Shown here piece by piece: positions 3,561 to 59,832 of a stretch of DNA of 64,000 bases. Positions within the stretch are counted from its first letter, which is position 1, and every line of letters starts with the position of its first letter. The DNA lies in the NCBI GenBank assembly GCA_963575745.1, contig CAUYUJ010021666.1:1-64000 (forward strand), written 5' to 3'. The DNA is from Prorocentrum cordatum (Eukaryota; Sar; Dinophyceae; Prorocentrales; Prorocentraceae). The notes below the pieces were generated by a model, which was not told the origin of the DNA, ran no database searches, and saw only the letters and a program-made list of their open reading frames with translations. A program made the translations under genes and the position numbers.

Positions 3561-3574
3561 ACTCGTAGAGCTTG

Positions 3575-5418
3575 ACTCGTGGAGCTTCCCTAAGCTAGTT
3601 GCTGGAAGCTTAAGAGTAATTCCTGCGCGCTGGAGAGCTAGTTGGCTCGAAAAAAAAGAACTGAACTTTTCACAATTTTTGGTCGGTTGAAAATTTTGTT
3701 CTCGAAATTCAACAATTCGTTTGTGCTCTAGTATTTTTTCCCGTCATATTCGATCTTATTCCCGCTCGTCATCTTGATCTCAGCTCGATCGGGTATCTTT
3801 TACTGCCAAAAAGCACACTGGCGGGATCGGCCGTTTCGAGTCATCTTGATACGCGTTGTCGGTATTTTGTACTTAACTCGAGCTGTAGGACAGCTACAGA
3901 GCTGGTAAGCACAGCTAATCGATGTAGAATGATTAGGTGCGTTCGCCTGTTGAATCCAGAGCTCTGAACTCGGTTTGCTAGCCGAGCTAGGTCCGCAAAC
4001 CTATTCGTATTATTCAAGTCATCTTGATTCGCACTGTCGGTATTCTGAACTTAACTCGAGATATAGGACAGCTACAGAGCTGGTAAGCACGCCTCATCGA
4101 CTCAGAATCATCAGGCGCGTTCGGCTGTTCCAACCAGAGGTCTGAACTCGGTCTGCTAGCCGAGCCAGGTCCGCAAACCTATTCGTATTATTCGAATCAT
4201 CTTGATAGGCGCTCTCGGTTTCCTGTACTTAACTCGAGCTATAGGACAGCTACAGGGCTGATAGTTACAGAAACCGATTCAGAATCATCAGTCGCGTTTG
4301 TCTGTCGAATCCAGAGCTCTGAACTCGGTCTGCTGCGCGATCCAGAATCACGAAACTGTTCGTATTCTTCCAGTCATCTTGAGAGCTACTGTCGGCGTTC
4401 TGCACTTAACTCGGGCTGTAGGGAGGCTGCAGGGCGGGTAATCACAGGAATCGATTCGGAGACATCAGACGCGTCCGTCTGTCGCATTCAGAGGTCTGAA
4501 CTCGGTCTGATACTCGTGTTCGGCTGAAAAATTATTCGTTCTCTGCAATTTTTTAAGTAGTAGTAGTAGTAGTGCAGCCCGAGTTAAGTGCAGAACGCCG
4601 ACAGTAGCTCTCAAGATGACTGGAAGAATACGAACAGTTTCGTGATTCTGGATCGCGCAGCAGACCGAGTTCAGAGCTCTGGATTCGACAGACAAACGCG
4701 ACTGATGATTCTGAATCGGTTTCTGTAACTATCAGCCCTGTAGCTGTCCTATAGCTCGAGTTAAGTACAGGAAACCGAGAGCGCCTATCAAGATGATTCG
4801 AATAATACGAATAGGTTTGCGGACCTGGCTCGGCTAGCAGACCGAGTTCAGACCTCTGGTTGGAACAGCCGAACGCGCCTGATGATTCTGAGTCGATGAG
4901 GCGTGCTTACCAGCTCTGTAGCTGTCCTATATCTCGAGTTAAGTTCAGAATACCGACAGTGCGAATCAAGATGACTTGAATAATACGAATAGGTTTGCGG
5001 ACCTAGCTCGGCTAGCAAACCGAGTTCAGAGCTCTGGATTCAACAGGCGAACGCACCTAATCATTCTACATCGATTAGCTGTGCTTACCAGCTCTGTAGC
5101 TGTCCTACAGCTCGAGTTAAGTACAAAATACCGACAACGCGTATCAAGATGACTCGAAACGGCCGATCCCGCCAGTGTGCTTTTTGGCAGTAAAAGATAC
5201 CCGATTCAGCTGAGATCAAGATGACGAGCGGGAATAAGATCGAATATCACGGGAAAAAAAACTAGAGCACAAACGAATTGTTGAATTTCGAGAACAAAAT
5301 TTTCAACCGACCAAAAGTTGTGAAAAGTTCAGTTCTTTTTTTTCGAGCCAACTAGCTCTCCAGCGCGCCGGAATTACTCTTAAGCTTCCAGCAACTAGCT
5401 TAGGGAAGCTCTACGAGT
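3575..5418. repeat. Large inverted repeat of CE-I (844-bp arms)
   Basis: Left arm 3575-4418 is CE-I leader plus monomers on the plus strand. Right arm 4575-5418 is its reverse complement. Position i pairs with 8993 minus i at every place I checked along both arms (for example 3601 with 5392, 4020 with 4973, 4418 with 4575), so the arms align without net indels. I found only about ten mismatches by eye. The 156-bp spacer (4419-4574) holds the start of a further monomer and an interrupted TAG/AGT run (about 4555-4573). Confidence 0.9.
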
Positions 5419-5470
5419 CATTACTCTTAGCTTCCAGCAATGACTTGCTAAGGGAAGCTCTACAAGTTAC
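5419..5470 (-). repeat. CE-I head fragment, reverse
   Basis: Short CTTAGCTTCCAGCAATGACT block ending AAGCTCTACAAGTT, directly joined to the Y tail ACTTGGTAGCG. Confidence 0.6.
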
Positions 5471-19442: not shown

Positions 19443-22400
19443 CGAATCGGCACCGGCTGTCGGGGATCAAGTTGGGATGCTGGAGCCTCGACAAGGCTGG
19501 CGAGAACAACTTCAGAGGCGTGGAGGTGCTCAACCATATGCGTGCATGTGGCGGTCTGTTCGCGCTTCAGGAGGCCCAGAATATAATTCATGCAGATGCC
19601 GCCCGTCTCGGATGGCAGATCAAGCATAGTGCCTGCAGGAAGGCGGGGCTCCTCTTCGATCGGAGTTGGGCCTCGACGTCCAGGGAATTCGTTACTACCT
19701 TCTCTAGATTCGCCATTGGTGTGTTCGGTACTTCCATCTCGCCCTTGGCTGTCTGTTCTCTCTACCTGCCCGATTCTCATCGAGAAGATTGCGAAGCGGA
19801 GTATGAACTTACGCTTGAGCGTGTGTCTGCCACTTTCAGAAGCCTCAGACAGAGGTATAGCCAGGCCAGCTTTGTTTGTTTGCTTGACGGGAATGTTGAG
19901 CTACCGCCACTATGTGAGTTAGAATGTGATGGGGAACTGTACCTCGCCACGGGAGAGGGCTTGAGGAAGGAGGTCAGGACCTTGGCATGTGGAACGGAGG
20001 AGAGGGAGCGTATCAACAGGAGGAGGAGGATGATGGAGATGCTACTGGGGTTCATGCAGACCCACATGTTTAAGGCGGCCAATACCTTTTCTGCAGATAG
20101 GCGTCCTACTTGGGAAGCGTGGGGCGAGCAACGTAGTTTCGGACGAATTCAGAAGGTGCTTGATTACATCTTGGTGCCCAGCCGTTGGGAGTGCTCAGAG
20201 TGTGAAGTTTCTTGGTGTTATGCAAGAGGAGGAAGGAGGAATAGGAGTCGATTAAGTGATCATGCACTTCTAACTGGGCAGTTTGCATCGCCTGGCCGTG
20301 TGATTGTGCGACGTGACGACAGGGGGCGGGCGGAGCCACCAGCGCCCTCTTTGGTAGGATATCGATGCGTGACATGGGGCGATGAGTTCAATGCCAGGAG
20401 GAGGGTGGATCGGAGCTTGGGAGATGTTGTGTTTCGTGGGATCCCCGCACGTTCTCTCGAGATGGAGCCAGCCAGCTTGCCTAGCACGCTCATTCAGTCT
20501 TTTGTTGCTGCTCCTGACGTGGACTTTACCACGGCGCAGAGTGGCAAGCAGAGGCCACCTGTGAGGCCGACCGAGTTGACTCGGCTTTTGGAGAGATGGC
20601 GGGAACTACCGTCAGACACGACTCCAGAGGAAAAGAAACGTTTCAGGAGTGATATTAATCTACATCGCCGTCGATATCGCAGAGATGTTGCAGCTTGGAA
20701 GTGTCCCCTCAATCGTCGAAAGACTCGTCATCATATTAAACACTTGGTGGTGGAGGGCCAGGAGACGGAGGACAGGGAGGTTTGGAGGAAGGAGCTCGAC
20801 AGTTTCTGCAGAAATAAGCTTTCATCGGATCAGATGCGGGAGGAGAACACTAGTATGATGGAGGAGATCAAGGAGAAGGCGAGGGAGGAGCTTTGTAGCA
20901 GCACGTATTCGACCATCACTATGGCGTTACTCGGACGTGGGCGGGCGCGCCTTCGTACACAACGAGCCACAGGGCCAGATCGAGTACCGTGTGAGGTGTT
21001 AAAGTGTCTTCCTTGGACGGTATTGCGCAACATCCGACGCCTGTTCGACGATATGCTTCACATGTGCACACCGTACCCCTCCTCATGGCGTGATATCCTC
21101 ATCTCCTTTATGCCCAAGCTTCCTGGCATCGCGGATCTTAGGGACGGTAGGCTTCTATGTATGCAGAACGCTATTGCACGATGGTGTAGCACATGCATTG
21201 TTATCTTGGTGGAACAACATGTCGAGCGAAACGGTCTCTTTCGCCCTCTCGGACTTTACGGCTTCCAATCTAATCGCACCACGAACGAGATCACGGCGAG
21301 CTTGAAACACATCGGCCAGCATGCTTCTACATGGGGCAAGGGGGAAACAGCACATCTGGCCAACGCAGATATCCTACAGGCCTTCGACCATTGCACGGTA
21401 GCCAATGTTAGACGGGGTTTACAGCACGCACATGTACCTTATCACCTTCAATATGCATTTCTTGATCCACTATGCGATAGTGTGGGTACGGTTTGCCATG
21501 AAAGTATCGAGGTGGAGGGTGTGAGATGGGATAGATGTATTAGAACGGGCGGAGCCGAGGGACCCCTAGGTTTCAATTTAATTATTGCTGCGATGTGGCA
21601 GGAAACCTTCCGACAATGGGATAGACAGAACATCGGCTATCAAGTGTGTTTTAAAACTGGGGACCCCATGGATTCTGGCAAGTCGTCCTACACGTCGGTC
21701 GTCAATCACTTCGTATGGGCAGATAATTGCTACATCTTGGCACGAAGCAGGGACGAATTGGCACTCATGATTCACGACCTTACTGTTAGACTCCAAGATT
21801 TCGGCATGCGCTGGAAACCCTCAAGCTTGCTATACATGGTCTTCGGAGCCGACGCTGCGAGAGATGCTGAGGGGCAGATCCTATCTTCAGCCGACTTGCT
21901 TGTACCCTTCCTGAATGACGTAATGCGGTTCAGGCGTGTTACGGAGATGACGGTTCTAGGCATCCAGCTGTTCTCTGACTATAAGTATTCCTCACACCTT
22001 GACGTGGACTCTAGAATCGAGGCGGCTCGTCGGACATTTTATTCCCAGGCAGGATATTTTCGGAACAACAGCACGCCTCTTAAGGACAAGTTCTTACGGT
22101 ACCAGCAAAAGGTTCAGAGTATTGCCCTTTTCGGTGCGGACGGTTGCACAGCCGACAAGGACAGCCTCCATGCCTTGCACGCGTTTGAGGGCAAGTGTTT
22201 ATGCTTCATGCTTCGATGCCGTCGAGAACCAGATGAATCCTATGCTACATGGAATGAGAGAAGATACAACGCTGCCAGATCGAAGTTCGCAGAGGCTGGG
22301 TATCACAGCTTGGTCCAGAGATTTCTCCGAGCTCAGTGGCTGCTGGCGAAGGATGTCTCGGCATATGCGCAGAGGTTGTATCAGGGAGAGGACATGACGG

Positions 22401-23434
22401 ACGAGCACAGAGCATGGAGTGATGCACGCATGTGTTTGATTGCCGTTGGAATAAGTTATGACACGCTGCGCACTCTTGAGGGAGAAGCCCTTCGTGCTTT
22501 CGGCAAGTGGAGGGAATGCGGAGTTATGAAACGCTGGAGGTCAGGAGGGCAAGCCATTGGACAACGTTGTTGGCAGACACCCTTTCATGAGTTCTTTGGC
22601 CCACGGTGGTGGGAAGTATTCCAAGGTGGCCTTCATGCCTTCATGCAGTTTGCAGCTCATCATTGTACACCCTCTATGCTCAAGCTTTTCCAGAAGAAAT
22701 GCAAAGGTATCCCTGATGGTAACTCCCCCGTCTTTCTAGCTGAACGAAATGAGGAGTATGTTGTTACAGATGACGATTCTCCTGCTGCACGCCTGCGATT
22801 CAGTAAGAGATTAGCTATCCACAATATGAAGAGCACTTGTTGGGACGTGACTTCTGGAGGCGTGCCGTTGGAGATCACAGGAGATTCTCTTCTTATCATT
22901 TGCTGGCTTTGCGGCCTCTGGAAGGCTGATAATCACTTGTACCAGACACGTGTTGATAATATGATAAATTCTTTAGAAGGAATGTGTTGTATGTATGGTG
23001 TCAGACCTGCTGAAGCAGGACGCGATCTTCTCAAGCATGAGTTTCGGGAATGGAACGAGAAAGCCGACCTCCTTACCCACCAGGCCCGCGAGGGCCACCA
23101 ATACACGAACGAACAGTACCAGTTGCAGCCATACGAACAGTCATGCTACGAACCTTGCCTCATCAAAGCGGGCTTTGATGGTGGTGTGTGCAGCCTGGGA
23201 GCTGGAAGTGGAGCTTGGATTCAGATTGGACTGCGATCTCGATTCTCCCATCTATCGCCCACCTCTTCTTTCTGTGAATCCCCACAGATTATCTTCAAGG
23301 ACGTTTACGTTTGCTCCTTCGCTCTCCAAGACGGGTCCACGGTGACGGATGCGGAACTCTCCGCTGCAGAGTGCGTTATTGCAGCACTCCCACGGGTTTT
23401 GCAGGCCTATTTTAGCGATAAGTTGTGTGATTGA
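19442..23434 (+). CDS. LINE A ORF2: endonuclease, reverse transcriptase, permuted RNase H
   Basis: Uninterrupted from the codon after the ORF1 stop to TGA at 23432-23434. There is no ATG before the first domain. A TTG at 19472 is used here as residue 1, giving 1320 aa. Domains: exonuclease-endonuclease-phosphatase (EEP) endonuclease with ALQEAQ (E34), LLDGN (D139, N141), VLDYILV (D231) and LSDH (S262, D263, H264). RT motif A is ADILQAFDH (D633, D639). Motif B is RTGGAEGPLGFN (691-702), with E where LINEs usually have Q. Motif C is VWADNCY (D751, N752), so the second catalytic Asp is Asn. At the C-terminus RNase H motifs occur in swapped order: ITGDSLL (D1138) and REWNEKAD (D1199), then AGFDGG (D1236) and DAELSAAE (E1295). 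The protein should nick target DNA and prime reverse transcription on it (target-primed reverse transcription). Confidence 0.88.
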   Translation, partial: PNRHRLSGIKLGCWSLDKAGENNFRGVEVLNHMRACGGLFALQEAQNIIHADAARLGWQIKHSACRKAGLLFDRSWASTSREFVTTFSRFAIGVFGTSISPLAVCSLYLPDSHREDCEAEYELTLERVSATFRSLRQRYSQASFVCLLDGNVELPPLCELECDGELYLATGEGLRKEVRTLACGTEERERINRRRRMMEMLLGFMQTHMFKAANTFSADRRPTWEAWGEQRSFGRIQKVLDYILVPSRWECSECEVSWCYARGGRRNRSRLSDHALLTGQFASPGRVIVRRDDRGRAEPPAPSLVGYRCVTWGDEFNARRRVDRSLGDVVFRGIPARSLEMEPASLPSTLIQSFVAAPDVDFTTAQSGKQRPPVRPTELTRLLERWRELPSDTTPEEKKRFRSDINLHRRRYRRDVAAWKCPLNRRKTRHHIKHLVVEGQETEDREVWRKELDSFCRNKLSSDQMREENTSMMEEIKEKAREELCSSTYSTITMALLGRGRARLRTQRATGPDRVPCEVLKCLPWTVLRNIRRLFDDMLHMCTPYPSSWRDILISFMPKLPGIADLRDGRLLCMQNAIARWCSTCIVILVEQHVERNGLFRPLGLYGFQSNRTTNEITASLKHIGQHASTWGKGETAHLANADILQAFDHCTVANVRRGLQHAHVPYHLQYAFLDPLCDSVGTVCHESIEVEGVRWDRCIRTGGAEGPLGFNLIIAAMWQETFRQWDRQNIGYQVCFKTGDPMDSGKSSYTSVVNHFVWADNCYILARSRDELALMIHDLTVRLQDFGMRWKPSSLLYMVFGADAARDAEGQILSSADLLVPFLNDVMRFRRVTEMTVLGIQLFSDYKYSSHLDVDSRIEAARRTFYSQAGYFRNNSTPLKDKFLRYQQKVQSIALFGADGCTADKDSLHALHAFEGKCLCFMLRCRREPDESYATWNERRYNAARSKFAEAGYHSLVQRFLRAQWLLAKDVSAYAQRLYQGEDMTDEHRAWSDARMCLIAVGISYDTLRTLEGEALRAFGKWRECGVMKRWRSGGQAIGQRCWQTPFHEFFGPRWWEVFQGGLHAFMQFAAHHCTPSMLKLFQKKCKGIPDGNSPVFLAERNEEYVVTDDDSPAARLRFSKRLAIHNMKSTCWDVTSGGVPLEITGDSLLIICWLCGLWKADNHLYQTRVDNMINSLEGMCCMYGVRPAEAGRDLLKHEFREWNEKADLLTHQAREGHQYTNEQYQLQPYEQSCYEPCLIKAGFDGGVCSLGAGSGAWIQIGLRSRFSHLSPTSSFCESPQIIFKDVYVCSFALQDGSTVTDAELSAAECVIAALPRVLQAYFSDKLCD

Positions 23435-23649: not shown

Positions 23650-23681
23650 CCAAGGTTGACGGTTTACCGCCGGCGCCCAGT
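23650..23681 (+). repeat. Right half of H module (type I) after LINE A
   Basis: CCAAGGTTGACGG, then TTTACCGCCGGCGCCCAGT. It is the loop and right arm of the type I hairpin whose left arm lies at 17906-17913. Confidence 0.85.
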
Positions 23682-32583: not shown

Positions 32584-35500
32584 GGTGCCCAGCTTCTGTT
32601 GGAGGTTGGAACGTTCGGAGGTTGGGAAGATACACCTCCGAGTGCATGAATCACATTGCCGAATTAAAGATTTCCATCGTCGGGGTCCAAGAGAGCCAGT
32701 TCTTACACGACTTGGATCTTGCAGATGCGGGTTGGGATATACATCGCTCGGCAGATGAAGGGGAGAACGTGGGGAGACGGGCTGCCATCTTGTGCCGAGG
32801 TGTATGGAGACATCTGCTTATCGATGTTGTGTGTGGTCGTCGCTGGGTCATTGCGATCTTTCGCAAGCTCATCTTCGTTTCTGTCTATCTCCCTCATAAG
32901 GAGTCTGAGCGGGGTGCACAGGGTGAAGCACGCCGTTCTCCTGAAGGGTTTCTCGCTAGTTTCAAGCTCTATACGGACGTGTTATCGGATCTTATTGCAC
33001 ATGTCTCTGCAGCCAAAAAGCGATTTCACATTGAGGAGGTTGTTATCTCGGCTGACGCCAACGTGGAGGTTTTCCCGCACCACAGGATCAATGGGGTGGA
33101 GGTTACGGGGGAGGCGGTGAATGGGCCTATACGTAAGAGGGGGAGGTCTAGTGGAGGTGACGAAAGTAGAGCCAACAGGATGAGGGAGATGTACTCGGGG
33201 GCCTTTCTGAAGACCATGGGGGCCCTCAAGTTGCAGCTAGCCAACACTTTTGGGAATCGTCAGCCTACTTGGAGACACAATTCGAGCACATACGAGCACG
33301 TCTATGATTATCTTGCGGTCCCAGCTTCTTGGATGACTCCAGGGGTGACTTGTTCTTGGGTTGTGCCGTCCCAGGTCCCACGGTCGGAGGCGACGGAAAG
33401 GACGTTTAGCGATCACAAGCTCTTGTGTGCCGAGATGCCCGCCCAGCATGCTCAGTTGAGGTATCGACGTCGGCCTCAGCTCAAGACCTGGAAGCTTCAG
33501 CCAGCGTTCGAGCTCCAGCAGACAGCCGGCTTGGAGAGAGCGATCTGCCAGCCCGAGCTCGTGAATCAGATCCACACGGATGTAGGTTTTGAGGTCATGA
33601 CACAGAGTATACTTGAGGGTGCCAGTGAGACTTTGGATATCTCCCGTTCCCGTGGTCAGCCTGTTTCAGACTATCCCAGATATTCGGAGGAGGATTTACT
33701 GATAAAGGAGGAGTTCTTTAAGGTCAGGAAGAGGTGGAGGGTGGCACGATATGGCGGGGCTAACGTGGGACAGGAGGAGTACGAGAGAGTCCAGGAGGAG
33801 TACAAGGGGACAGCCAGGAGGTGGCGTCGAGTACGTAAGCGTCATGATCGTGCATGTGAGCTTTACCGTATTCGTGACGGTGTCCGTCGTAGGCCTGTTA
33901 TTACGCACATGTATGTGGACGGGGTCCTCACGCGTGACCAGGAGAAGTGGATTGAGGGCCTTCGGCGTCATGGGCTCCTGAGGTACTCTAGCGATCCCCA
34001 CCGACAGGACACCAACGCGTGCTTGGATGAGCTTAAGAACCAGTGTAAGGCCCTGCGAGACTCTGGAGAGCCCCACCGCAACCCGATCAACATGGGTCTC
34101 TTGCTGGAGGCACGGTCTAGACTCAGGGAAGGACGGGCAACAGGTGCAGACGGGGTGACGTCATCGGTGCTCAAAGCATTGCCATGGGAAGCCCTCCGAC
34201 ACATACTTACCTTATTCCGTTTGCTGTATGATCAGAAACATGTTTCACCGAAGTCCTGGAGAGAGATCTTGGTATGCTTGATGCCTAAGAATCCCAAGGC
34301 TCGTGATTTTGAAGAAACGCGGGCCCTCTCACTTCTTTCTCATTTTGGTAAGTGGTATAGCAGTTGTCTATGTGTACTTCTAGAGCACCGCGTTCGGCAG
34401 GCTGCACCGCCAGGTTGCAACTTATATGGCTTTATCGCGGGGCACAAATGTTATGAGGTCACGGCCCCCCTCAAACGTCTTGCTCAACACGGCGTTGTGT
34501 GGGGGAAGGAGGAGAGTCTTTATCTTGCAAGTGCTGATATTGAAAAGGCGTTTGATAATTTCACGGTGAGATGTGCAACAGAGGCGCTTTTATTCCATCA
34601 TGTCCATCCTGCCCTTGTGTATGCTGTCTTTGAGAGTTATGCTTGTAATACGGCAGAGATCAGCTTCCAACAGTGTTCTACGACCATCTCGTGGGATACT
34701 TGCATACGTACAGGTTCCTTGGAGGCGCCTTTGCTATTTGTTGCCCAGACACTTCGTATGCTTGCACCAGTGACGGCAGGTTGGAGGCAGTCTGGATACG
34801 GCGTCAGGCTCACTGATGAGGCATCCAATCTCTTGGTCAACCACTGGTTGTGGGCAGACAATATTTTGCTGGCAGCAGCTTCCAGGCGATAATTGACTCA
34901 TATGCTCGAGGACTTGACTGGGGTCCTCCACCGCTTCGGTTTCAACTGGAAAGCATCTTCGATGGAGTTCTTGGCTTGTGGCGTCCAAGGTCCATTGCAG
35001 GATATCCGCCTGCCTGTGTCGGGGCTCCTGCCTGCTGAGATGGGTAGGAAGCGTTCTCGTGGGGCTTCCCAGAGCGCCGCAGGCCCTTCGGAGGAGATGA
35101 TAGTGAGGCAGGCGGAGAGGATGGAGGTTCTTGGCACGCTATTGGACGTACGATTTCAGGATCATGACGACATTAAGCACCGACTGGAGAAGGCACGGCG
35201 GGTCTTCATGAGTGAGATTTCTTTTTGCTCGTCGCCCGTGGTTCCGCTTCGTTGTAAGTTTCAGCGTTATGATAGCAGGGTCAGAAGTTGCTTTCTGTAC
35301 GGTTTGGAGGGTACGACTCTGGATTCGAGTAGTCTCCAACAGATACATGCAGCTGAAGGCAACTTCTTGTCCACCATGAGACGTCTCAAAAAGAAGATCA
35401 CGGAGTCCTGGGGAGAGTACTGGGGCAGGAGGATTAAAGGTGGTCGTCGCTTATTGAAGTGGGCCCGTAAGCCTTCGATGGTCCAGCTCGCCCTTCATCG

Positions 35501-36851
35501 CCAGTGGCTCTTCGCCAAACATGTTGTGAGCACGATCCATGAGGAGCATAGTCGGGTTGATGAGGACGCACTCAGTCAGGGCATTCTTTATCATGAGCCA
35601 CGAGATCCTGATATTTTTGGTGGTTCGCAGCGTTCCTTGGAGTTATCGGTTCCCTCGCCTACCCCGAATGCCAGACAGCTCAACAGTTCGTGTAGGAGAA
35701 AGGCACAGAGCGCATCTTCCTTGGAAAATAGGTCAGTTCGCAGACGTATATCGGAGAACACGGCACATGAGCATCATGATTCACAACATGTACATGAGCC
35801 TGTTCGTAAGCGGGTACGCCATACCTATGCACGGGAGGAGGAAGGAGGATTGCCCACTGCCAGTATGCAGAGCGCCTTGACGATGATGCACGCGTCGGGG
35901 GAGTGGACTGAGCAGCGTGACGTACATGTTAGAGCTCTCCCTGGGGGCCGAAGGTTTACTAGAGCCTGTCGTCATCGAGTCTTGACGGGACTCAGGCCTT
36001 GGTTCGAGGTCTTCGAGCACACGCACGGGGTTCATTGGGATCGCACGATGGTCTGGAATGAAACTGGCTGGCGTTCTTTCCTGGTGGGTACCCTGGCCGC
36101 CCTGGACTTGGATGATCTTCTCGAGTTCTGCCTTCTTCGGGATCCCTTCACGGGTGAGTTCAAGCAGGAGGAGGAGGGGGAGGAGAAGTCTGAGGAGCAG
36201 CAACGACGGGAAATTGAACGGGTGGCGAAACGACTGGCCGCGATAAATGATGGTGAAACCACTTGGCGTGGGGAAGGGGTTGGATATGGCTTGGAGCTCC
36301 GTGGGGATAGCCAGTGTGTTGTGCGCTGGCTTAATGGAAGATATCGCTGTCACAATGAAGTATACCGCCGCACGATCAAGGGTATGCAGAACCGCCTTCA
36401 CAGAATGAGTGAGGACCATCATCTTGTCACGGCTGAAGTGGGAAGGGATATGTGGAAATGTGTGTATAGGGAGGGCAACGATGAGGCGGACCATGAGACA
36501 CATCTTGCACGTGAGGGTAAAGTAACTTCTGATGTTCGTTGGAATCATAACACTCTTTATCATATTAGATCGGGTCATTATATGGTTCGTGCACTTAGAG
36601 GAGCTTTTGACGGTGGGCGGTGTGAACGTGGCACTTCGTGTGGCTGGGTTATGGATGCTTATCTTGTTCCCTCTCTTCCTCCTCACCAGCTTCCCCCTGG
36701 ACTTGTGCAGGGCGGATGGCACCCTGGAGTTGGCCGCAGAGGTTTCATGATCCCTAGCCACTGCACGATCACACAGGCTGAGTTGGCAGCTGCACATTCG
36801 CTTCTCAATGGCATTGCCGAGATGTGTATACACGTACAGCTTGGCCGGTGA
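32583..36851 (+). pseudogene. LINE B' ORF2 with one nonsense codon
   Basis: In frame from the ORF1 stop to TGA at 36849-36851 except for TAA at 34890-34892, where LINE B has GAA (a single G to T change). The break falls about 10 codons after RT motif C. Preserved: EEP motifs (WNVR, GVQESQ, SADANVE, TFSDHKL), RT motif A (SADIEKAFDNF), motif B (RTGSLEAPLLF), motif C (LWADNILL, Asp codon at 34857), and the permuted RNase H: RGDSQCVVRWLNG (Asp at 36306), REGNDEAD (Asp at 36489), GAFDGGRC (Asp at 36609), TQAELAAA (Glu at 36780). This copy has the intact C-terminus that LINE B lacks. Confidence 0.88.
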
Positions 36852-39276: not shown

Positions 39277-42200
39277 GGTGCCCAGCTTCTGTTGGAGGTT
39301 GGAACGTTCGGAGGTTGGGAAGATACACCTCCGAGTGCATGAATCACATTGCCGAATTAAAGATGTCCATCGTCGGGGTTCAAGAGAGCCAGTTCTTACA
39401 CGACTTGGATCTTGCAGATGCGGGTTGGGACATACATCGCTCGGCGGATGAGGGGGAGAACGTGGGGAGACGGGCTGCCATCTTGTGCCGAGGGGTGTGG
39501 AGACATCTGCTTATCGATGTTATGTGTGGTCGTCGCTGGGTCATAGCGATCTTTCGTAAGCTCATCTTCGTTTCTGTCTATCTTCCTCATAAGGAGTCTG
39601 AGCGGGGTGCACAGGGTGAAGCACGCCGCTCTCCTGAAGGGTTTCTCGCTAGTTTCAAGCTCTATACGGACGTGTTATCGGATCTTGTTGCACATGTCTC
39701 TGCGGCCAAAAAACGATTTCACATTGAGGAGGTTGTTATTTCGGCTGACGCCAACGTGGAGGTTTTCCCGCACCACATGATCAATGGGGTGGAGGTTACG
39801 GGGGAGGCGGTGAATGGGCCTATACGTAAGAGGGGGAGGTCTAGTGGAGGCGACGAGAGTAGAGCCAACAGGATGCGGGAGATGTACTCGGGGGCCTTTC
39901 TGAAGACCATGGGGGCCCTCAAGTTGCAGCTAGCTAACACTTTTGGGAATCGTCAGCCTACTTGGAGGCACAATTCGGGCACATACGAGCACGTTTATGA
40001 TTATCTTGCGGTCCCAGCTTCTTGGATCACTCCAGAGGTGACTTGTTCTTGGGTTGTGCCGTCCCAGGTCCCACGGTCCGCGGCGGCTGAACGGACGTTT
40101 AGCCACCGCAAGCTCTTGTGTGCCGAGATGCCTGCCCAGCATGCTCAGTTGAGGTATCGACGTCGGCCTCAGCTCAAGACTTGGAAGCTTCAGCCAGGGT
40201 TCGAGCTCCAGCAGACAGCCGGCTTGGAGAGAGCGATCTGCCAGCCCGAGCTCGTGAATCAGCTCCACACGGACGTAGGTTTTGAGGTCATGACACAGAG
40301 TATGCTTGAAGGTGCCAGCGAGACTTTGGATATCTCCCGTTCTCATGGTCAGCCTGTTTCAGATTATCCCAGATATTCGGAGGAGGATTTGCAGATTAAG
40401 GAGGAGTTCTTTAAGGTCAGGAAGAGGTGGCGGGTGGCACGATCTGGCGGGGCTAACGTGGGAGAGGAGGAGTACGAGAGAGTCCAGGAGGAGTATAAGG
40501 GGATAGCTAAGCAGTGGCGTCGAGCTCGTAAGCGTCATGATCGTGCATCTGAGCTTTATCGTATTCGTGACGGTGTCCGTCGTAGGCCTGTTATTACGCA
40601 CATGTATGTGGACGGGGTCCTTACGCGTGATCAGGAGAAGTGGACTGAGGGTCTTCGTCGTCATGGGCCCCTGAGGTACTCTAGCGATCCCCACCGACAG
40701 GACACCAATGCGTGCTTGGACGAGCTTAAGAACCAGTGTAAGGCCCTGCGAGACTCTGGAGAGCCCCACCGCAACCCGATCAACATGGGCCTTTTGCTGG
40801 AGGCACGGTCTAGACCCAGGGAAGGACGGGCAACAGGTGCAGACGGGGTGTCGTCGTCGGTGCTCAAAGCATTGCCATGGGAAGCCCTCCGACACATACT
40901 TACCCTATTCCGTTTGCTGTATGATCAGAAACATGTTTCACCGAAGTCTTGGAGAGAGATCTTGGTATGCTTGATGCCTAAGAATCCCAAAGCTCGTGAT
41001 TTTGAAGAAACGCGGGCCCTTTCACTTCTTTCTCATTTTGGTAAATTGTACAGCAGTTGTCTATGTATACTTCTAGAACACCGCGTTCGGCAGGCTGCAC
41101 CGCCAGGTTGCAACTTATATGGCTTTATCGCGGGTCACAAATGTTATGAGGTCACGGCCCCCCTCAAACGTCTTGCTCAACACGGCGTTGTGTGGGGGAA
41201 GGAGGAGAGTCTTTACCTTGCAAGTGCTGATATCGAAAAGGCGTTCGATAACTTCACGGTCAGATGTGCAGCAGAGGCGCTTTTGTTCCATCAGGTCCAT
41301 CCTGCCCTTGTGTATGCTGTCTTTGAGAGCTATGCTTGTAACACGACAGAGATCAGCTTCCAACAGTGCTCGACGACCATTTCGTGGGATACTTGCATTC
41401 GTACAGGTTCCTTGGAGGCGCCTTTGCTATTTGTTGCGCAGACCCTTCGTATGCTTGCACCAGTGACGGCAGGTTGGAGACAGTCTGGATACGGCGTCCA
41501 GCTCACTGATGAGGCCTCCAATCTCTTGGTCAACCACTGGTTGTGGGCAGACAATATTTTGCTGGCAGCGGCTTCCAGGCGAGAATTGGCCCACATGCTC
41601 GAGGACTTGACTGGGGTCCTCCACCGCTTCGGGGTCAACTGGAAAGCATCCTCGATGGAGTTCTTGGCTTGTGGCGTCCAAGGTCCATTGCAGGATATCC
41701 GCCTGCCTGTGCCGGGGCTCCTGTCTGCTGAGGTTGGTAGGAAGCGTCCTCGTGGGGCTTCCCAGAGCGCCGCAGGTCCTTCGGAGGCGATGATAGTGAG
41801 GCAGGTTGAGAGAATGGAAGTTCTTGGCACACTATTGGACGTGCGATTTCAGGATCATGAAGACATTAAGCATCGGCTGGAGAAGGCACGACGGGTCTTT
41901 ATGAGTGAGACTTCTTTTTATTCGTCGCCCGTGGTTCCGCTTCGTTGTAAGTTTCAGCGTTATGATAGCAGGGTCAGAAGTTGCTTCCTGTACGGCTTGG
42001 AGGGTACGACTTTGGATTCTGGTAGTCTCCAACAGATACATGCAGCTGAAGGCAATTTCTTGTCTACCATGAGGCGTCTCAAAAAGAAGATCACGGAGTC
42101 CTGGGGAGAGTACTGGGGCAGGAGGATTAAAGGTGGCCGTCGCTTATTGAAGTGGGCCCGTAAGCCTTCCATGGTCCAGCTCGCCCTTCATCGCCAGTGG

Positions 42201-43522
42201 CTCTTCGCCAAACATGTTGTGAGCACGATCCATGATGAGCATAGTCGGGTGGATGAGGACGCACTCAGTCAGGGCATTCTTTATCATGAGCCACGAGATC
42301 CTGATATTTTTGGTGGTTCGCAGCGTTCCCTGGAGTTATCGGTTCCCTCGCCTATCCTGAATGCCAGACAGCGTAACAGTTCGTGTAGGAGAAAGGCACA
42401 GAGCGCATCTTCCTTGGAGAGTAGGTCGGTTCGCAGACGTATATCGGAGAGCGCGGCACATTAACATCATGAATCACAACATGTACATGAGCCAGTTCGT
42501 AAGCGGGTACGCCGTACCTATGCACGGGAGGAGGGAGGAGGATTGCCCACTGCTAGCATGCAGAGCGCCTTGACGATGATGCACGCGTCGGGGGAGTGGA
42601 CTGAGCAGCGCGACGTACATGTTAGAGTTCTCCCTGGGGGTCGACGGGCTACTAGAGCTTGTCGTCATCGGGTCTTGACGGGACTTAGGCCTTGGTTCGA
42701 GATTTTCGAGCACACGCACGGGGGGGTTCATTGGGATCGCACGATGGTCTGGAATGAAACTGGCTGGCGTTCCTTCCTGGTGGGTACCTTCTCGATTTCT
42801 GCCTTCTTCGGGATCCTTTCACGGGTGAGTTCAAGCAGAAGGAGGAGGGGGAGGAGAAGTCAGCGGAGCAGCAACGACGGGAAAATGAACGGGTGGCGAA
42901 ACGACTGGCCGCGATAAATGTTGATGAAACCACTTGGCGTGGGGAAGGGGGTGGATATGGCTTGGAGCTCCGTGGGGATAGCCAGTGTGTTGTGCGCTGG
43001 CTTAATGGACGATATCGCTGTCACAATGAAGTATATCGCCGCACGATCAAGGGTATGCAGAACCGCCTTCACAGAATGAGTGAGGACCATCATCTCGTCA
43101 CGGCCGAAGTGGGAAGGGATATGTGGAAATGGGTGTATAGGGAGGGCAACGATGAGGCGGACCATGAGACACATCTTGCACGTGAAGGTAAAGTAACTTC
43201 TGATGTTCGTTGGAATCTTAACATTCTTTATCATATTAGATCGGGTCATTATACTGCTCGTGCACTTAGAGGAGCTTTCGATGGTGGGCGGTGTGAACGT
43301 GGCACTTCGTGTGGTTGGGTAATTGATGCTTATCTTGTTCCCTCTCTTCCTCCTCACCAGCTTCCCCCTGGACTTGTTCAGGGCGGATGGCACCTTGGAG
43401 TTGGCCGCAGAGGTTTCATGATCCCTAGCCACTGCACGATCACACAGGCTGAGTTGGCAGCTGCACAATCACTTCTCAATGGCATTGCTGAGCTGTGTAT
43501 ACACGTACAGCTTGGTCAGTGA
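39276..43522 (+). pseudogene. LINE B ORF2, nonsense plus 25-bp deletion
   Basis: Open through the EEP (Asn of WNVR codon at 39303; Glu of VQES at 39384) and the RT with LWADNILL. It is broken by TAA at 42462-42464, where LINE B' has GAG. Near 42789 a 25-bp deletion relative to LINE B' (the segment encoding LAALDLDD) shifts the frame, so the RNase H part is read in another frame (42893-43522: RGDSQCVVRW, REGNDEAD, GAFDGGRC, TQAELAAA). A 3-bp G-run expansion near 42719 is in frame. The two lesions differ from the one in LINE B', so the copies died independently. Confidence 0.88.
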
Positions 43523-48053: not shown

Positions 48054-51000
48054 GACGACGACGCCGTACACCGTTCAAGGGGATCCGACTGGGCAGCTGG
48101 AACCTCAATCGGGCGGGGTCGGCCAATTTCAAGGGGAATGAGATCCTGAGGAGCCTTTCAATGCGAGATTGCATTTGGGGTGTTCAGGAATGCCAGAATC
48201 TTTTCGGAGGCAAATTCGATGCATATATCAGACGGCGTGGTCTATCATATCGTGTGAGTTGCGACGGTAAGTGTGGGTTATTATTTAACAAAGAGTGGAG
48301 TACATGTGTGCGTGAATCAATATGTCAATATGAACGGTTCTGTGTGGTGGTCTTTGGTAGTGGAAGTGCCCCTGTGATAGTTGCCTCTGCGTATCTTCCC
48401 GACCCCGGCGTCGAGAACGCCGCAGATGTGCAGTGCGGGGCGTTGGACACGCTCGAGTCAGTCATTCTCACTCTGCGCAGTCGTTGGAAGGGGGCGACTG
48501 TCTCTGTGCTGCTCGATGCCAACGTCGAGCTACCCCCATCAACTCAGCTGCAGTGCTCACGCACTGGGACTGTATATGAGGCGGTGGGAAGTGCTACCAA
48601 GGCGGAGAGGAGGACCTGCGAGGAGGGAGGTGCACAACGGGAGAGGAGGGACGTACGACAACAGTTGCGCGAGCGTTTTCTCTGCTTTCTAGGGCGCCTG
48701 GGGATGAAGGCTGCCAATTCGTTCTTGCCACGACGACTACATACATGGGAGAGTTACGGAATATCTCGGTGGGGGACGTGTAAGAAGGCTCTTGATTACA
48801 TTTTTGTTCCCAGGACGTGGGTGATCGATGAGATGACGGTTGAAACGATCATGAGTAATGGGGGGAAGACAAATCGCAGTCGTCTCAGCGACCATGGCCT
48901 GCTTCAGGGGACTTTTAGTGATGCAGGCGCTGAGCTGGTCAAACGTAGAATCCCGACGGCAGCTCGTGAAAAGAGTTTGGTGGGTTATAAGACGGTGAAT
49001 TGGGGGGACCTCAATATGGCACGAAAGGAAATCGATCGGGTCTTAGGAGATGCCAATACTACTTGTTCTCCAGGGGACCTTGTGTCGACCACTATTCGGG
49101 CTTGTACTGAGCAGGAGGAAATCAAATCACGACTGCCACCACGGGACGGGGACTACCGCCAATTAGGCCTGCAGGGCTCACGGCCTGCCGGGAGATTTTG
49201 CGACGGAAGCCTCTGCCTGCGTCAGTGGACGTACCCAGCTTGCGCAGACGTGCCAACGGACTTCGGAGGGAGTATCGTGCGGCGTTGGCCGCGTGGACCT
49301 CTCCTGCCTCCAGGCGCAAAGAGCGTCACGGTATCAAGCACCTCATTGTGCAGGGGCGGATATCTGAGGACAGGGAGGAGTGGGTGGAGGAGATCAGAGC
49401 ACATACCAGACAGAGATATACTTCGGAGGAGGTCAGAGGACGGGACGTGGAGATGTTGGAGGAGTTGAGGAGGGATGCACAACAGAACCTATGTGACGGG
49501 TACTGAACTGAGGGACTGACAATGGCGGTGGTATGCCAGGCACGGTCACGTCTCAAGTCCAGGCGCGCCACGGGTCCCGACAGGCTGCCTTGTGAATTAC
49601 TCAAGGCGTTGCCGTGGGCGACTTTGCGTGGCGTAGCTCGGATGTTTGATGAGATATTTCGCATGACACGGCAGTCTCCGCAGGACTGGAGGCAGATTCT
49701 GATCGCCTTCATGCCCAAGCTGCCGAGCTTGACATCACTGACCGATGCACGGTACCTCTGTCTGCAAAACAGTCTCAGCCGTTGGTATTCTGCTTGTGTG
49801 GTGATCCTGGTCGAACAATTTGTGTCTCGGGCTGGCCTCATGGGACCCCTGGGCATCTACGGCTTCCAGGAGGGACGTAAGACGGTGGAAATTGTGGGGG
49901 CCCTCAAGGCTCTGGCTCAACATGGGGACATCTGGGGAAAGGATCAGACGGTCCATATCGCGAACGCCGATATCAAACAAGCGTTCGACCATTGCAGCCT
50001 TCAAAACGCCAAGCGAGCTAAGTGCCATGCCAATATTCCTGCCTATCTCCAGTATGCCTTGCTTGCACCGCTGGTTTGCATTACGGGGTCGTTAGTTGTC
50101 GAGGGTGTGGCCATTCACGACATCAACTGGGACGTCTGTATACGGACGGGCGGCCCTGAGGGGCCCCTTCTCTTTAACCTTATCATATGTGCCATGTGGG
50201 GACCTATATTTCGGGATTGGGACAGTAGAGGAGTGGGGTATGTGCTGGAGGGCGTCTGTGGAGAGTATGAGCGACGGACAGTCGTGAACCACTTTGTGTG
50301 GGCGGACAACTGCTACCTTGTCTCTGCCTCCTCAACTGCGCTGGCTCAGATGATGCACGATTTAACCCTACCACTACATGACTGGGGGATGAGATGGAAG
50401 GATAGCAGCCTGTTGTATATGACATGTGGGGAAAATGCGAGAGTGGACGGTGACGGACATATACTTGCCAGTGAGGATTTGTGTATACCTGCGTGCTCGA
50501 GATATCAGGACTTTAGACTTCGACGTGTGTGCATAATGAAAGTATTGGGTCATGAGATTTTCTCCACCTATCTAGTGCCCGCTCATCCTGATGTGGAATA
50601 TCGCATCAAGGAGGCTCGTGCTTGTTTCATTGGACAGTCGGATTTCTTGTGTAACAGAGCGGTAGCTGTTCGTGATAAGTTTTGTCGTTGTCAAGACAAG
50701 GTGCAGAGTATGGCGTTGTATTGTCTAGAGACATGTACTGCTGATACTTCCTCGCTACACATGCTCAATGCCTTCGAGGGATGGTGTTTGTGCCGTATGT
50801 TTCGACGGCCGAGGAGGGAGGAGGAGACTATGGCGGAGAACCGACGACGGTACCACGAGGCCAGAGAGCAATTCCGATCTTATGGATTTGCGAGTTTGGT
50901 GCAGCGATTTCTCCGTATGGTGTGGAACTCCGCTAAGGATGCGGCAGATGTCATTTCTATATTGTGTACTGCTTCTCATGAGGAAATATCTTCGACGCAA

Positions 51001-52020
51001 CGTACGTGGAGAGATCACCACATGACTACGGTTGCATACGGTCCACTGTGGGACAGGCTCAGGACGGATGCGTCGGAGTGCCTGCGGGGTATGTTTCACT
51101 TCCAGGAGGCTTCGCAGCTAAAAAGGAGACATGTTAGCTCAGGTAGAGCTATTGGCCAGAGATGCTGGCTATTTTCTTTCTGTGAATTCTACGGACTCAA
51201 ATGGTGGGGGTCCTTTGTGCCGATAGATGCTGCGTATGTTCAGTTCTGCGAACACATGTGTACACGGACGATGCTGAGTTATTTTCAGAAAAGAAAAGGG
51301 TACTGTACTACAGGTGGGGCCCTGCAGGAGGTACATACTATCACACAAAACGACCTGCACACTTATGGGGCTGAAGAGGGCACTGCGGCTTTCAACGACA
51401 ACCTGGCCAAACGTATTGCGTTACAAATTATGAAGGAGGTTGAGTACGACCTCGACTCATTTGGGATCCCTGTGTACATTTCTGGGGACAGTCTTCTGGT
51501 GGTGTCGTGGCTTCAGGGTGTCTGGAGGGTGCTTAATCGTACATATCAGGATAGGATCAACAGAATGATTAACCAACTTGACAACATGTGTCAGAGGTTT
51601 GGAATTAGGCCTGCCTGTCATGGGAGGGAAATTGTCGCCCACACATATAGGGAATGGAACACGCGTGCAGATGTACTCACTCATACGGCCCGTGTCGGGC
51701 CACCAGTGATTCGAGATAGGATAGGGCTTTACGCCCCTCAGTTACAACAGGTGTTTCGCGTTTGTGCCATCAGAGCTGGATTCGATGGTGGCGTCTCTTG
51801 CGACGGCGTGGGAGTTGGGTGCTGGATAGATGTTGGACGGATATCGAGGCTCTCAAGGCAGCCACTCAGCCATGATATTATGTGGACGGAGGTGTATAGT
51901 GCGGCATTCTCGATTGATCCAACTTCAACAGTGGCTGATGCCGAGATCTCTGCCGTTGAGCATACGATTATTATCTTGCCGCGGGTTGTACAAGCGTGTT
52001 TCGGAAAGGATATGATGTGA
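48053..52020 (+). pseudogene. LINE D ORF2, frameshift plus nonsense
   Basis: EEP region in one frame (SWNLNRAG, GVQECQN, VLLDANVELPP, ALDYIFVPR, LSDHGLL). A frameshift around 49140-49170 moves the alignment with LINE A into the frame of LTACREILRRKP. TGA at 49504-49506 interrupts that frame just before TMAVVCQARSRLKSRRATGP. The RT follows intact: ANADIKQAFDHC, RTGGPEGPLLFN, VWADNCYL (Asp codon 50305, Asn 50308). The C-terminus carries the permuted RNase H: ISGDSLLVVSW (Asp 51487), REWNTRAD (Asp 51670), AGFDGGVS (Asp 51784), ADAEISAVE (Glu 51943). Ends TGA at 52018. Confidence 0.87.
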
Positions 52021-55088: not shown

Positions 55089-55274
55089 GAGGACGACGGT
55101 GATGGTTTTTTTCCAGATTCGCCCAGAGGATTCTTATGTGGGGTTCTTCCGTCGGAGTAATTTGTTTCTCGCTGCAGAAGCTTTCTCCATGTGTTCCTAA
55201 GATCGCCGCGCAAGGAAAGAGCTCTACGAGGGTCCCGGCGGTTACCAGGTTGACGGTTTACCGCTGGTTCCAGT
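55089..55274 (+). repeat. CE-II end with degraded hairpin
   Basis: Ends GAGCTCTACGAGGGTCCCGG. The hairpin is CCGGCGGTTA/TTACCGCTGG with mismatches and ends TTCCAGT (55274). Upstream bases include a CE-II-like CAGAAGCTTTCTCCATG stretch. Confidence 0.6.
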
Positions 55275-56319
55275 TCCGGGGCGCTGGAGAGCTAGTTGGC
55301 AAGAAAAATCTCGACGGACATTTTGAGGAATTTTGGTCGGTTGAAAATTTTGTTTTCAAAATTTGAACATTCGTTAGAGCTCTAGTATTCTTTCCCGTGA
55401 TATTCGATCTTATTCCCGCTCGCCGTCTTGATCTCAGCTCGATCGGGTACCTTTTACTGCCAAAAAGCGTCCAGGCGGGATCGCCCGTTTCGGGTCATCT
55501 TGTCACGCGGTGACGGTTTTCTCAGGATAATTCGAGCTTCAGGACAGCTACAGAGCTGGTAAGCACAGCTAATCGATCCAGAATGATCAGGCGCGCTCGC
55601 CTGTTGAACCCAGAGGTCTGAACTCGGTCTGCTAGCCAAGCTAGGTCCGCAAACCTATTTGTATTATTCGAGTCATCTTGACAGACGCTCTCGGTTTTCT
55701 GTACTTAACTCGAGCTACAGGACAGGTACAGAGCTGATACGTGCAGAATCTGATTTAGAATCATCAGTGGCCGTTGTCTGTTGAATCCAGAGCTCTGAAC
55801 TCGGTCTGCTGCCCGATCTAGAACCGCGAAACTTTTCGTATTGTTCGAGTCATCTTGAGAGATGCTGTCGGTTCTCTGCACTTAACTCGGGCTGTAGGGG
55901 GGCTGCATGGCTGGTAATCACTGGAATCGATTCGGAGACATCAGGCGCGTCCGAACTCTGTCTGCTGCCCGAACTAGGTCTGCGAAACTATTCGTATTGT
56001 TCGAGTCATCCTGAGAGGTGCTGTCGGTTTCCTGCACTTAACTCGGGCTGTAGGGGGGGCTGCAGGGCTGGTAATCACAGGAATCGATTCAGAGACATCA
56101 GACGCGTCCGCCTGTCGCATGCAGAGGTCTGAACTCGGTCTGATTCTCGAGCTAGGTTTGCCAAACTATTCGTATTGTTCGAGTCATCTTGAGAGGTGCT
56201 GTCGATTTACGCACGTAACTCGGGCTGTGTAATTTTTATTTCGACATTATATGTTGTCAGGAAGCTCTACGAGTCCCCCGGCGGTAACAAAGGTTGACGG
56301 TTTACCGCCGGCGCCCAGT
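55275..56319 (+). repeat. CE-I element, 5' truncated, with hairpin
   Basis: Starts TCCGGGGCGCTGGAGAGC in the head. About four monomers plus a shortened last monomer. GGAAGCTCTACGAG at 56260-56273 and type I hairpin at 56274-56319. Confidence 0.85.
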
Positions 56320-57445
56320 CTCGACGGACCTTTTGGTGACTTTTGCTCGGTTGAAAATTTTGTTCTCAAAATTTGAACATTCGTTAGAGCTCTAGTATTT
56401 TTTCCCGTGATATTCGATTTTATTCCCGCTCGCCATCTTGATCTCAGCTCGATCGGGTAGCTTTTACTGCCAAAAAGCACACGGGCGGGATCGGCAGTTT
56501 CGGGTCATCTTGACACGCGGTGGCGGTTTTCTGAACATAACTCGATCTATAGAAGAGCCACAGAGCTGGTGAGCACACCTTATCGATGCAGAATGATCAG
56601 GCGCGTTCGCCTGTTCCATCTAGAGGTCTGAACTCGGTCTGCTAGCCGAGCTAGGTGCGCAAACCTATTCGTATTATTCGAGTCATCTTGACACACACTC
56701 TCGGTTTTCTGTACTTAACTCGAGCTATAGGACAGCTACAGAGCTGATACTTACAGAAGCCGATTCAGAATCATCAGTCGCGGTGTTTGTTGAATCCAGA
56801 GCTCTGAACTCGGTCTGCTGCCAGAGCTAGGTCCGCGAAACTATTCGTATTGTTCGAGTCATCTTGAGAGTCGCTGTCGGTTTTCTGTACTGAACTCAGG
56901 CTGTAGGGGAACTACAGGGCTGGTAATCTCAGGGATCGATTCGGAGACATCAGGCGCGTCCTTCTGTCGAAACCAGAGCTCGGAACTCGGTCTGCTGCCC
57001 GAGCTAGGTCCGCGAAGCTATTCGTATTGTTCGAGTCATCTTGAGAGTCGCTGTCGGTTTTCTGCACTTAACTCGGCTGTAGGGTGGCTGCAGGGCTGGT
57101 AATCACAGGAATCGATTCGGGGACATCAGACGCGTCCCACTATTGCATTGGTCTGAACTCGGTCTGATACTCGAGCTAGGTTTGCCGAACTATTCGTATT
57201 GTTCGAGTCATCTTGAAAGGTGCTGTCGATTTACGCACGTAACTCGGGCTGTAGGAGAGCTACAGAGCTCGTATAGAAGACAATCCAACATCGGGGGCGT
57301 TCGGCTGTTGCATCGAAAGGTCTGAAATCGCTTGGGCTGAAAAACTATTCGTTCTCGACATTTTTTTCGATATCCTATATTGTCAGGAAGCTCTACGAGT
57401 CCCCCGGCAGTAAGAAAGGTTGACGGTTTACCGCCGGCGCCCAGT
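56320..57445 (+). repeat. CE-I element, 5' truncated, with hairpin
   Basis: Starts CTCGACGGACCTTTTGGTG in the leader. Five monomers in order, with consecutive monomer starts 177 bp apart (56853 and 57030). Hairpin 57400-57445; the left arm has one change (CCGGCAGTAA). Confidence 0.85.
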
Positions 57446-58010
57446 AACTCGTAGAGCTTCCCTTAGCAAGTAATTGCTGGAAGCTTGAGAGTATTTCCGG
57501 GGCGCTGGAGAGCCAGTTGGCAAGAAAAATCTCGACGGACCTTTTGGTGATTTTTGTTCGGTTGAAAATTTTGTTCTCAAAATTTGAACATTCGTTTGAG
57601 CTCTAGTATTTTTTCCCGTGATATTCGATCTTATTCCCGCTCGCCATCTTGATCTCAGCTCGATCGGGTACCTTTTACTGCCAAAAAGCGTCCAGGCAGG
57701 ATCGGCCGTTTCGAGTCATCTTGATACGCGCTGTCGGTATATTGGACTTAACTCGAGATACAGGACAGCTACAGAGCTGGCAGGCACACCTTTTCGATTC
57801 AGAATGATCAGACGCGTTCGTCTGTTGCATCCAGAGGTATGAACTCGGTCTGCTTGCCCAGCTCGGTCCGCAAACCTATTCGTATTTCAAGTCATCTTGA
57901 CAGGCGCTCTCGGTTTTCTGTACTTAACTCGAGCTATATGACAGCTACAGAGCTGATACTTACAGAAAACGATTCAGAGTCATTGGTCGCGTTTGTCTCT
58001 TGAACCCAGC
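57446..58010 (+). repeat. CE-I element, 3' truncated
   Basis: Complete opening AACTCGTAGAGCTTCCC, leader and two monomers. It is then cut at CCAGCG, where the next CE-I head begins. No hairpin. Confidence 0.8.
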
Positions 58011-59231: not shown

Positions 59232-59832
59232 GTTCGAGTCATCTTGAGAGTTGCTGTGGGTTTTCTGTACTTGACTCGGGTTGTAGGGAGGCTGCATTGC
59301 TGTTAGTCACAGGAATCGATTTGGAGACATCAGGCGCGTCCGCCTGTCGAATCCAGAGCTCGGAACTCGGTCTGCTGTCTGAACTAGGTCCGCAAAACTA
59401 TTCGTATTGTTCGAGTCATCCTGAGATGCTGTCGGTTTTCTGCACTTAACTCGGGCTGTAGCGCGGCTGCAGGGCTGGTAATCACAGGACTCGTTTCGGA
59501 GAGATCAACCGCGTTCGTCTGTCGCATTCAAAGGCCTGAACTCGGTCTGATACTCGAGCTAGGTTTGCCAAACTATTCGTATTCTTCGAGTCATCTTCAG
59601 AGATGCTGTCGATTTACGCACGTGACTCGCGCTGTAGGAGAGCTATAGAGCTCGTACAGAAGACAATCCAGAAGCATCGGGGGCGTTTGGCTGTTGCATC
59701 GAGAGGTCTGAAATCGTTTTGCTGAAAAACTATTCGTTCTCCGCAATTCTTTTTCGACATTATATATTGTCAGGAAGCTCTACGAGTCCCCCGGCGGTAA
59801 GAAAGGTTGACGGTTTACCGCCGGCGCCCAGT
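59232..59832 (+). repeat. CE-I element, strongly 5' truncated
   Basis: Starts GTTCGAGTCATCTTGAGAG inside the third monomer, directly after CCCAGT. It has the last three monomers and the hairpin 59787-59832. Confidence 0.85.

Follow-up and report, generated by a model that had tools for sequence, protein, structure and literature searches.

LINE copies in the window

The window, that is, the whole 64,000-nt stretch of DNA analysed here, belongs to a genome of 4.13 Gb. Open frames and tblastn revealed four LINE copies in it (A, B, B' and D), all on the + strand (Table 1). The ORF2 of LINE A terminates at a stop codon in 23432-23434. Positions and motifs given for this element in an earlier note on the same DNA were recovered, and its residue numbers, kept here, are to be read as relative only, because 19472 is the tool's TTG start and not an established start codon. 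LINEs B and B' belong to a single family, the two copies matching at 94.6% over 5,247 aligned columns. Identity between A and D amounts to 46% from the reverse transcriptase (RT) to the end of the protein and to 43% within the RNase H domain at its C-terminus, where A and B share about 30%; on the latter two figures the domains can be called divergent, as the earlier note had it.

Matches to the Pfam RT model RVT_1 (PF00078) passed its gathering score for D (1.4e-7) and for B' (5.1e-8); those of A (E 2.9e-5) and B stayed below it. A profile of the LINE RTs retrieved RT 8c8j and R2 proteins from the PDB. RT motif C reads WADN vs YxDD, with the second Asp changed to Asn (LINE A residues 749-752; 7/7 sequences in alignment A7), and motif B reads I[RK]TGxxExP, which we take to be unusual for an RT. 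The ORF2 N-terminus gave no match to Pfam endonucleases; the motifs D[GA]NVELP, PTWE, LDYxxVP and SDHxLL found there presumably fit an apurinic-type endonuclease.

Table 1. Positions in the window of the four ORF2s and of the parts of their predicted permuted RNase H domains (AF2, AlphaFold2; A6, 18-row alignment; fractions are A6 rows keeping the residue).
Feature	Position	Strand	Details
LINE A ORF2	19472..23434	+	open frame; endonuclease-like N-terminus, RT, predicted C-terminal permuted RNase H
LINE A conserved extra helix [AS][KR]R[LI]A before domain	22781..22828	+	AF2 helix 25-40; R, A invariant in A6
LINE A first half: beta4, alphaB, alphaC/D, beta5, alphaE	22862..23089	+	AF2 elements 52-127
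D1138, putative equivalent of E. coli D70	22883..22885	+	18/18; after beta4 (AF2)
R1192, putative Arg of archaeal-type signature D-E-D-R-D	23045..23047	+	18/18; signature as in the accessible part of PMC5348765
D1199, putative equivalent of E. coli D134	23066..23068	+	17/18; within alphaE (AF2)
LINE A linker, old C-terminus (alphaE) to old N-terminus (beta1)	23090..23146	+	between AF2 elements 127 and 147
LINE A second half: beta1, beta2, beta3, alphaA; D1236, E1295	23147..23425	+	AF2 elements 147-239
D1236, putative equivalent of E. coli D10	23177..23179	+	18/18; within beta1 (AF2)
E1295, putative equivalent of E. coli E48	23354..23356	+	18/18; alphaA start; paired with E48 by the swapped profile
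LINE B ORF2	32622..36851	+	one in-frame stop 34890-34892; RNase H in piece 34893-36851
LINE B predicted permuted RNase H	36171..36848	+	beta4-alphaE 36285-36512; beta1-alphaA 36579-36845
LINE B putative catalytic codons	D 36306, R 36468, D 36489, D 36609, E 36780	+	
LINE B' ORF2 main part	39315-42464	+	RNase H part 42893-43522 in another frame
LINE B' predicted permuted RNase H	42893..43522	+	Asp, Asp, Asp, Glu codons 42977, 43160, 43280, 43451
LINE D ORF2	48161-49468; 49522-52020	+	separate N-terminal piece; main piece
LINE D predicted permuted RNase H	51331..52017	+	Asp, Asp, Asp, Glu codons 51487, 51670, 51784, 51943

RNase H motifs follow a swapped order

The C-terminal ~190 residues of all four window ORF2s carry, in this order, the motifs GDS (Asp), RExNxxAD (Arg, Asp), FDGG (Asp) and TxxxE (Glu). 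In LINE A they had been reported as ITGDSLLIICW, REWNEKADLL, AGFDGGVCS and TDAELSAAECV, which we read back at codons 22883-23356, and the asserted common order of A, B, B' and D holds for 4/4 ORF2s that tblastn finds in the window. Protein searches, one of them scoring the 8000 best candidates, added 16 database relatives (P0002 to P0017), three of which (P0010, P0012 and P0017) are Prorocentrum cordatum proteins. Motif patterns parsed the same order in 17 of the resulting 20 sequences (4 from the window, 16 from databases), and the distance of 61 residues between D1138 and D1199, pointed out before in LINE A, was exactly 61 in 17/17 of them. As for the other three, P0011 departs from the motif patterns by a single letter, P0013 is disrupted at the end of the protein, and P0017 lacks the GDS half. 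P0017, a P. cordatum predicted protein listed with a contig as long as that of P0010, is nearly equal to P0010 and differs from it by the absence of the GDS half and its surroundings; half of the RNase H may have been spliced out in this gene model.

With P0013 and P0017 excluded, the remaining sequences make up alignment A6 (18 rows), in which the strand 4 Asp, the Arg, the strand 1 Asp and the Glu are each conserved in 18/18 and the helix E Asp in 17/18, the single exception being an Asn in P0015. The accessible part of PMC5348765 gives the catalytic residues conserved among RNases H as D-E-D-R/H-D, with Arg marking the archaeal type. On this signature, the domain is assigned to the archaeal type (aRNH), since the predicted active-site Arg is found in 18/18 rows and D-E-D-R-D is present.

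Predicted structures show rotated RNase H elements

The fold prediction proposed in the earlier note yielded two confident AlphaFold2 models, for the domains of LINE A (pLDDT 84, pTM 0.81) and LINE B (pLDDT 89.3, pTM 0.85), which rest on 11 and 18 sequences, respectively. Both models contain the full element set in the order beta4-...-beta5-alphaE-beta1-beta2-beta3-alphaA, with the catalytic residues on their expected RNase H elements. Canonical type 1 RNase H runs beta1-beta2-beta3-alphaA-beta4-...-beta5-alphaE, an order from which the LINE domains depart, and this swap of elements would make the LINE domain a circular permutant of the aRNH family rather than an ordinary member. In sequential structure alignments, RNase H was matched along the first half only and ranked level with or lower than the unrelated folds PelC, CinA and TolB. 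The linker between the halves is about 20 residues long and variable in sequence among relatives. Ahead of the domain, between it and the RT part, the helix at 22781-22828 and its relatives show an aromatic residue after the invariant Arg/Ala.

Profile comparisons favor the swapped order

The first half of the LINE A domain (D1138, R1192, D1199) matches by profile the second half of canonical RNase H. For comparisons of order we used a canonical reference alignment of 51 rows (47 distinct), E. coli RnhA included, and a joint between swapped halves that we chose and trimmed ourselves, a point counted against the best explanation given below. In hhalign runs against this set, the first half alone scored 64.0 (60 columns), the natural order 68.6, with only the first half aligned (59 columns), and the second half appended behind 65.1, whereas the swapped order scored 72.9 over 85 columns and paired TDAEL with RMEL of E. 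coli (E48). Column shuffles of the moved half equalled or exceeded the real score in 1/300 cases (mean 65.5, sd 0.85), and none of 60 reversed controls reached 72.9, the largest scoring 72.2. A doubled native-order profile did not cross the joint unaided in hhalign, and the second half alone gave no significant match to the RNase H profile (probability 1%). The first half is thus firmly identified, and the second half is recognised through the joint tests, its conservation and the predicted structure.

Solved structures provided a further comparison, for which the earlier note had suggested a halves-swapped profile. Such a profile (A4) found RNases H in the PDB with E 1.2e-4 (ST0753) and 2.2e-4 (3u3g), and its best alignments span the artificial joint. 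Known RNases H account for 6/8 listed chains; the other two are 9f7k, under the uninformative name GH14654p, and 3eno, another enzyme. The natural-order profile (A5) hit RNases H in 6/6 listed chains with a best E of 0.0039, its alignment covering the strand 4-helix E half only.

We scored 17 single sequences, with halves trimmed and linker removed, against an HMM of the canonical set. The swapped order outscored the same halves left unswapped in 17/17 and the first half alone in 13/17, falling below the latter in P0002, P0009, P0010 and P0012. Among the 7 B-type rows, 0/300 shuffles matched the real score, and the gain over the first half alone was about 5-9 bits. Single-sequence support was weaker for the 10 A-type rows, in which 1 to 14 of 300 shuffles reached the real score; the swapped LINE A sequence obtained 9.3 bits, with 1/300 shuffles as good, and P0012 stood at 14/300. 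Replacement of the moved half by unrelated segments of the same protein was as good in 0/146 cases for B, P0003, P0007 and A, and in 3/146 for D.

A Pfam scan of five swapped single sequences returned RVT_3 at E 0.025 for P0007 and 0.12 for P0003, both below cut-off, and no RVT_3 match for A, D and B; because of this weak outcome, the profile tests were adopted. In natural order, LINE B' matched PF13456 with E 0.019, over profile positions 63-117 only. NCBIfam models RNAseHI_Thmprot (E 4e-4 in LINE B, 1.6e-4 in P0004) and RnaseHI_Halo (6.8e-5 in P0016) were likewise matched over the second half of the profile only, P0004 and P0016 lying below the curated cut-offs. Among the five proteins scanned, the LINE A ORF2 had no NCBIfam match, and the LINE A domain, used by itself to query PDB sequences, retrieved only an unrelated receptor (E 0.24). 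Such LINEs could thus be recorded as lacking RNase H, since the natural-order sequences scanned miss the Pfam and NCBIfam cut-offs.

The domain is widespread in the host genome

When the LINE A domain served as query against the host genome, at least 152 matches were obtained, with 150 of 5,437 candidates scored. They include the window copy and numerous rows with 95-100% identity, of which some 30, by an eye count, fall within a 1,330-residue open frame. Those listed matches that cover most of the domain align unbroken in the permuted order. They include a further 39 rows, 58-59% identical, that align as a single block over about residues 9-223; by sequence, these are another family of the same kind. 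Every one of the 30 A-family loci fetched (L056-L085, of which L056 is the window copy) retains the five residues, and a stricter pattern reads all five in 24/30.

A tree of the RNase H domain (17 rows) separates B-type from A-type sequences, and an RT tree (9 rows) does likewise, with support for the split of 100/99 and 100/100, respectively, under midpoint roots; in the former, the program warned of long branches meeting at P0003. Since both trees agree, the permuted domain has probably been inherited with the RT since before the A/B split. Between B and B', dN/dS is 0.29 in the RNase H domain (dS 0.10; only 13.5 changes of each kind), and two further regions of ORF2 give 0.13 and 0.18. This sequence measure points to selection for the protein, though both copies are now broken.

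A circularly permuted RNase H as the best explanation

Conservation, the swapped profile match and the predicted element order together support the earlier proposal of a circularly permuted RNase H. We regard it as very likely that the last ~200 residues of these ORF2s form a natural circular permutant of an archaeal-type RNase H, which is probably active. Its strand 4 to helix E half would come first, followed by the linker and, last, the strand 1 to helix A half, and folding of the chain would bring all four acids, together with the arginine, into a single two-metal site like that of canonical RNase H. The enzyme would then cut the RNA of the RNA-DNA hybrid produced by target-primed reverse transcription, which would let the second DNA strand be made; by analogy with what has been proposed for other LINE RNases H, removal of template RNA after first-strand synthesis is its likely role. 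The tether would change as well, the RT being joined to strand 4 via a helix and helix A becoming the free end. We assign a probability of roughly 70% to the full explanation, namely that a natural, active permuted RNase H, high in copy number, with helix A as free end and the sole RNase H detected, was fixed in the ancestor of an old and diverse lineage of dinoflagellate LINEs.

The alternative that survives best accepts the permuted fold and holds it to be catalytically dead, with a structural or nucleic-acid-binding function like that of the connection (tether) domain of retroviral RTs. RNase H-derived domains devoid of catalytic residues do exist in other retroelements, according to the accessible part of PMC5348765, the activity of the LINE domain is a predicted one, and the helix E Asp is an Asn in one of 18 rows. 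A structural relic would nevertheless be expected to lose its catalytic residues, yet despite drift to ~30% identity just one position of the signature varies (17/18), the other four being invariant, and all five residues are kept in every one of the 30 genome copies. Given this conservation, a dead structural domain is unlikely.

Far less probable is an ordinary order, with a diverged first half upstream, in which the [AS][KR]R[LI]A helix would be helix A and the tail bearing FDGG and TxxxE would be unrelated. A helix is indeed predicted just before strand 4, and by eye its A-[KR]-R-x-A comes near the register of A-E-Y-x-A. However, the catalytic Glu would then be Lys, Arg or Ile, the conservation of FDGG and TxxxE would be without reason, and the tail does score as a first half once placed first. 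When this helix was tried as a worn helix A, 48 to 297 of 300 shuffles were as good or better in each sequence, so that it gave no gain over shuffles in 17/17. The earlier statement that no normal strand 1 precedes the GDS motif also stood, none being detected in the 250 upstream residues of 13 sequences (probability 0.07). The earlier note had named a complete canonical RNase H elsewhere in the protein as contrary evidence; no canonical first half was detected on either side of the domain or elsewhere in the window's open stretches. The 3' regions of all four LINEs gave no RNase H signal, and among 943 open stretches of at least 40 residues only the B', B and D domains appeared at E up to 1, a threshold below which the natural-order LINE A domain itself falls.

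A swapped dimer, with the two halves of each site contributed by different ORF2 chains, would be permitted by the linker; this reading is just as improbable, as the single chain is predicted to form one compact domain (pTM 0.81-0.85). Chance resemblance or a local rearrangement of one element can be practically dismissed: short motifs such as FDGG do arise by chance, as we judged for the one locus from viral contigs (L055, where a phage-like contig gives a short match at the FDGG region), but the 61-residue spacing and the order are constant in 17/17 parsed sequences and recur across two clades and many genome copies, in agreement with the earlier view that this is no local rearrangement.

As to how the permuted RNase H came about, it would have a single origin, older than the divergence of the A and B clades. 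Circular permutation usually proceeds by tandem duplication and loss of the outer halves. No visible trace of a tandem duplication was found in these LINEs, and an origin by duplication and trimming, which is perhaps what happened, is a guess, because the helix before strand 4 shows no gain over shuffles.

Relation to known RNases H

The best profile matches are aRNHs, namely ST0753 (2ehg/3aly), Halobacterium salinarum RNase H1 (4e19) and LC11-RNase H1 (3u3g). The LINE domains share with them D-E-D-R-D, the GDSxxVxxxxxGxW and RExNxxAD motifs and the predicted strand/helix set, and differ in the swapped halves and in having one more helix ahead of strand 4. From the strand 1 Asp to the Glu of helix A, the spacing is 47-61 residues in the LINE domains vs 38 in E. 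coli. Circular permutants of E. coli RNase HI have been engineered, which would show that the fold accommodates new termini; these are man-made and not retroelement domains. To our knowledge, no natural RNase H permutant is known.

An aRNH at the ORF2 C-terminus is described for plant Ta11 L1 and oomycete L1 LINEs in the accessible part of PMC5348765, and the domains studied here resemble these in RNase H type and in their place at the C-terminal end of ORF2. A CCHC knuckle lies upstream of the aRNH in those elements (PMC5348765, accessible part); a pattern search found none in A, B and the main D piece. As here, Utopia and other RNase H-bearing non-LTR retrotransposons combine RNase H and RT in one polyprotein, and no permuted order is mentioned for Utopia-type elements in the accessible parts of PMC5348765 and PMC7943196. 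The text of the former contains 'permut' 0 times and makes no mention of a permuted order, and the string is also absent from the accessible main text of a survey of the RNase H-like superfamily (PMC3985635). Elsewhere, in the accessible parts of PMC5408684, PMC4432964, PMC10449503, PMC11453091, PMC2628886, PMC7824862, PMC3150331, PMC10830420, PMC3710099, PMC11878206 and PMC7943196, 'permutation' refers to a scaffold, domain counts, methylases, an HD domain or HEPN/KEN, and further to hydrolase strands, RT thumb helices, statistics or general protein evolution. Among the open-access papers listed by our searches, none described a natural permuted RNase H by title or abstract, in keeping with the earlier note, and none dealt with these LINEs by title or the start of the abstract. 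An aRNH at the end of ORF2 being already known, the new part would be the swapped order of its halves, as read from the sequences.

RNase H is among the oldest and most studied nuclease folds. A permuted domain would make it possible to examine, in a protein from nature, how catalysis can be separated from chain order, and would bear on why LINEs repeatedly gain RNase H, a recurrence called enigmatic in the accessible part of PMC5348765.

Shared tails and repeats in the window

The four LINEs have a common tail, approximately AGGTTGACGGTTYACCGCCGGCGCCCAGT(T), at 23663, 37097, 43769 and 52230, and it recurs at 20 other places; sequences diverge after the shared tail, and no poly-A was seen there. 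The sequence TTNACCGCCGGCG has 24 exact copies in the window vs 0.01 expected. Fourteen of the 24 tail copies, none of them a LINE, are preceded within 60 bases by CCGGCGGTAA, which is complementary to the tail. Such short tail-bearing elements may be mobilised by these LINEs. The stretch 55274-64000 consists of head-to-tail repeats of ~1.2 kb, most pairs among the matches listed being ~80-96% alike, and bears the LINE-like shared tail at 7 places. An 846-bp inverted repeat at 3573-5420, with arms 99% alike, resembles this repeat family.
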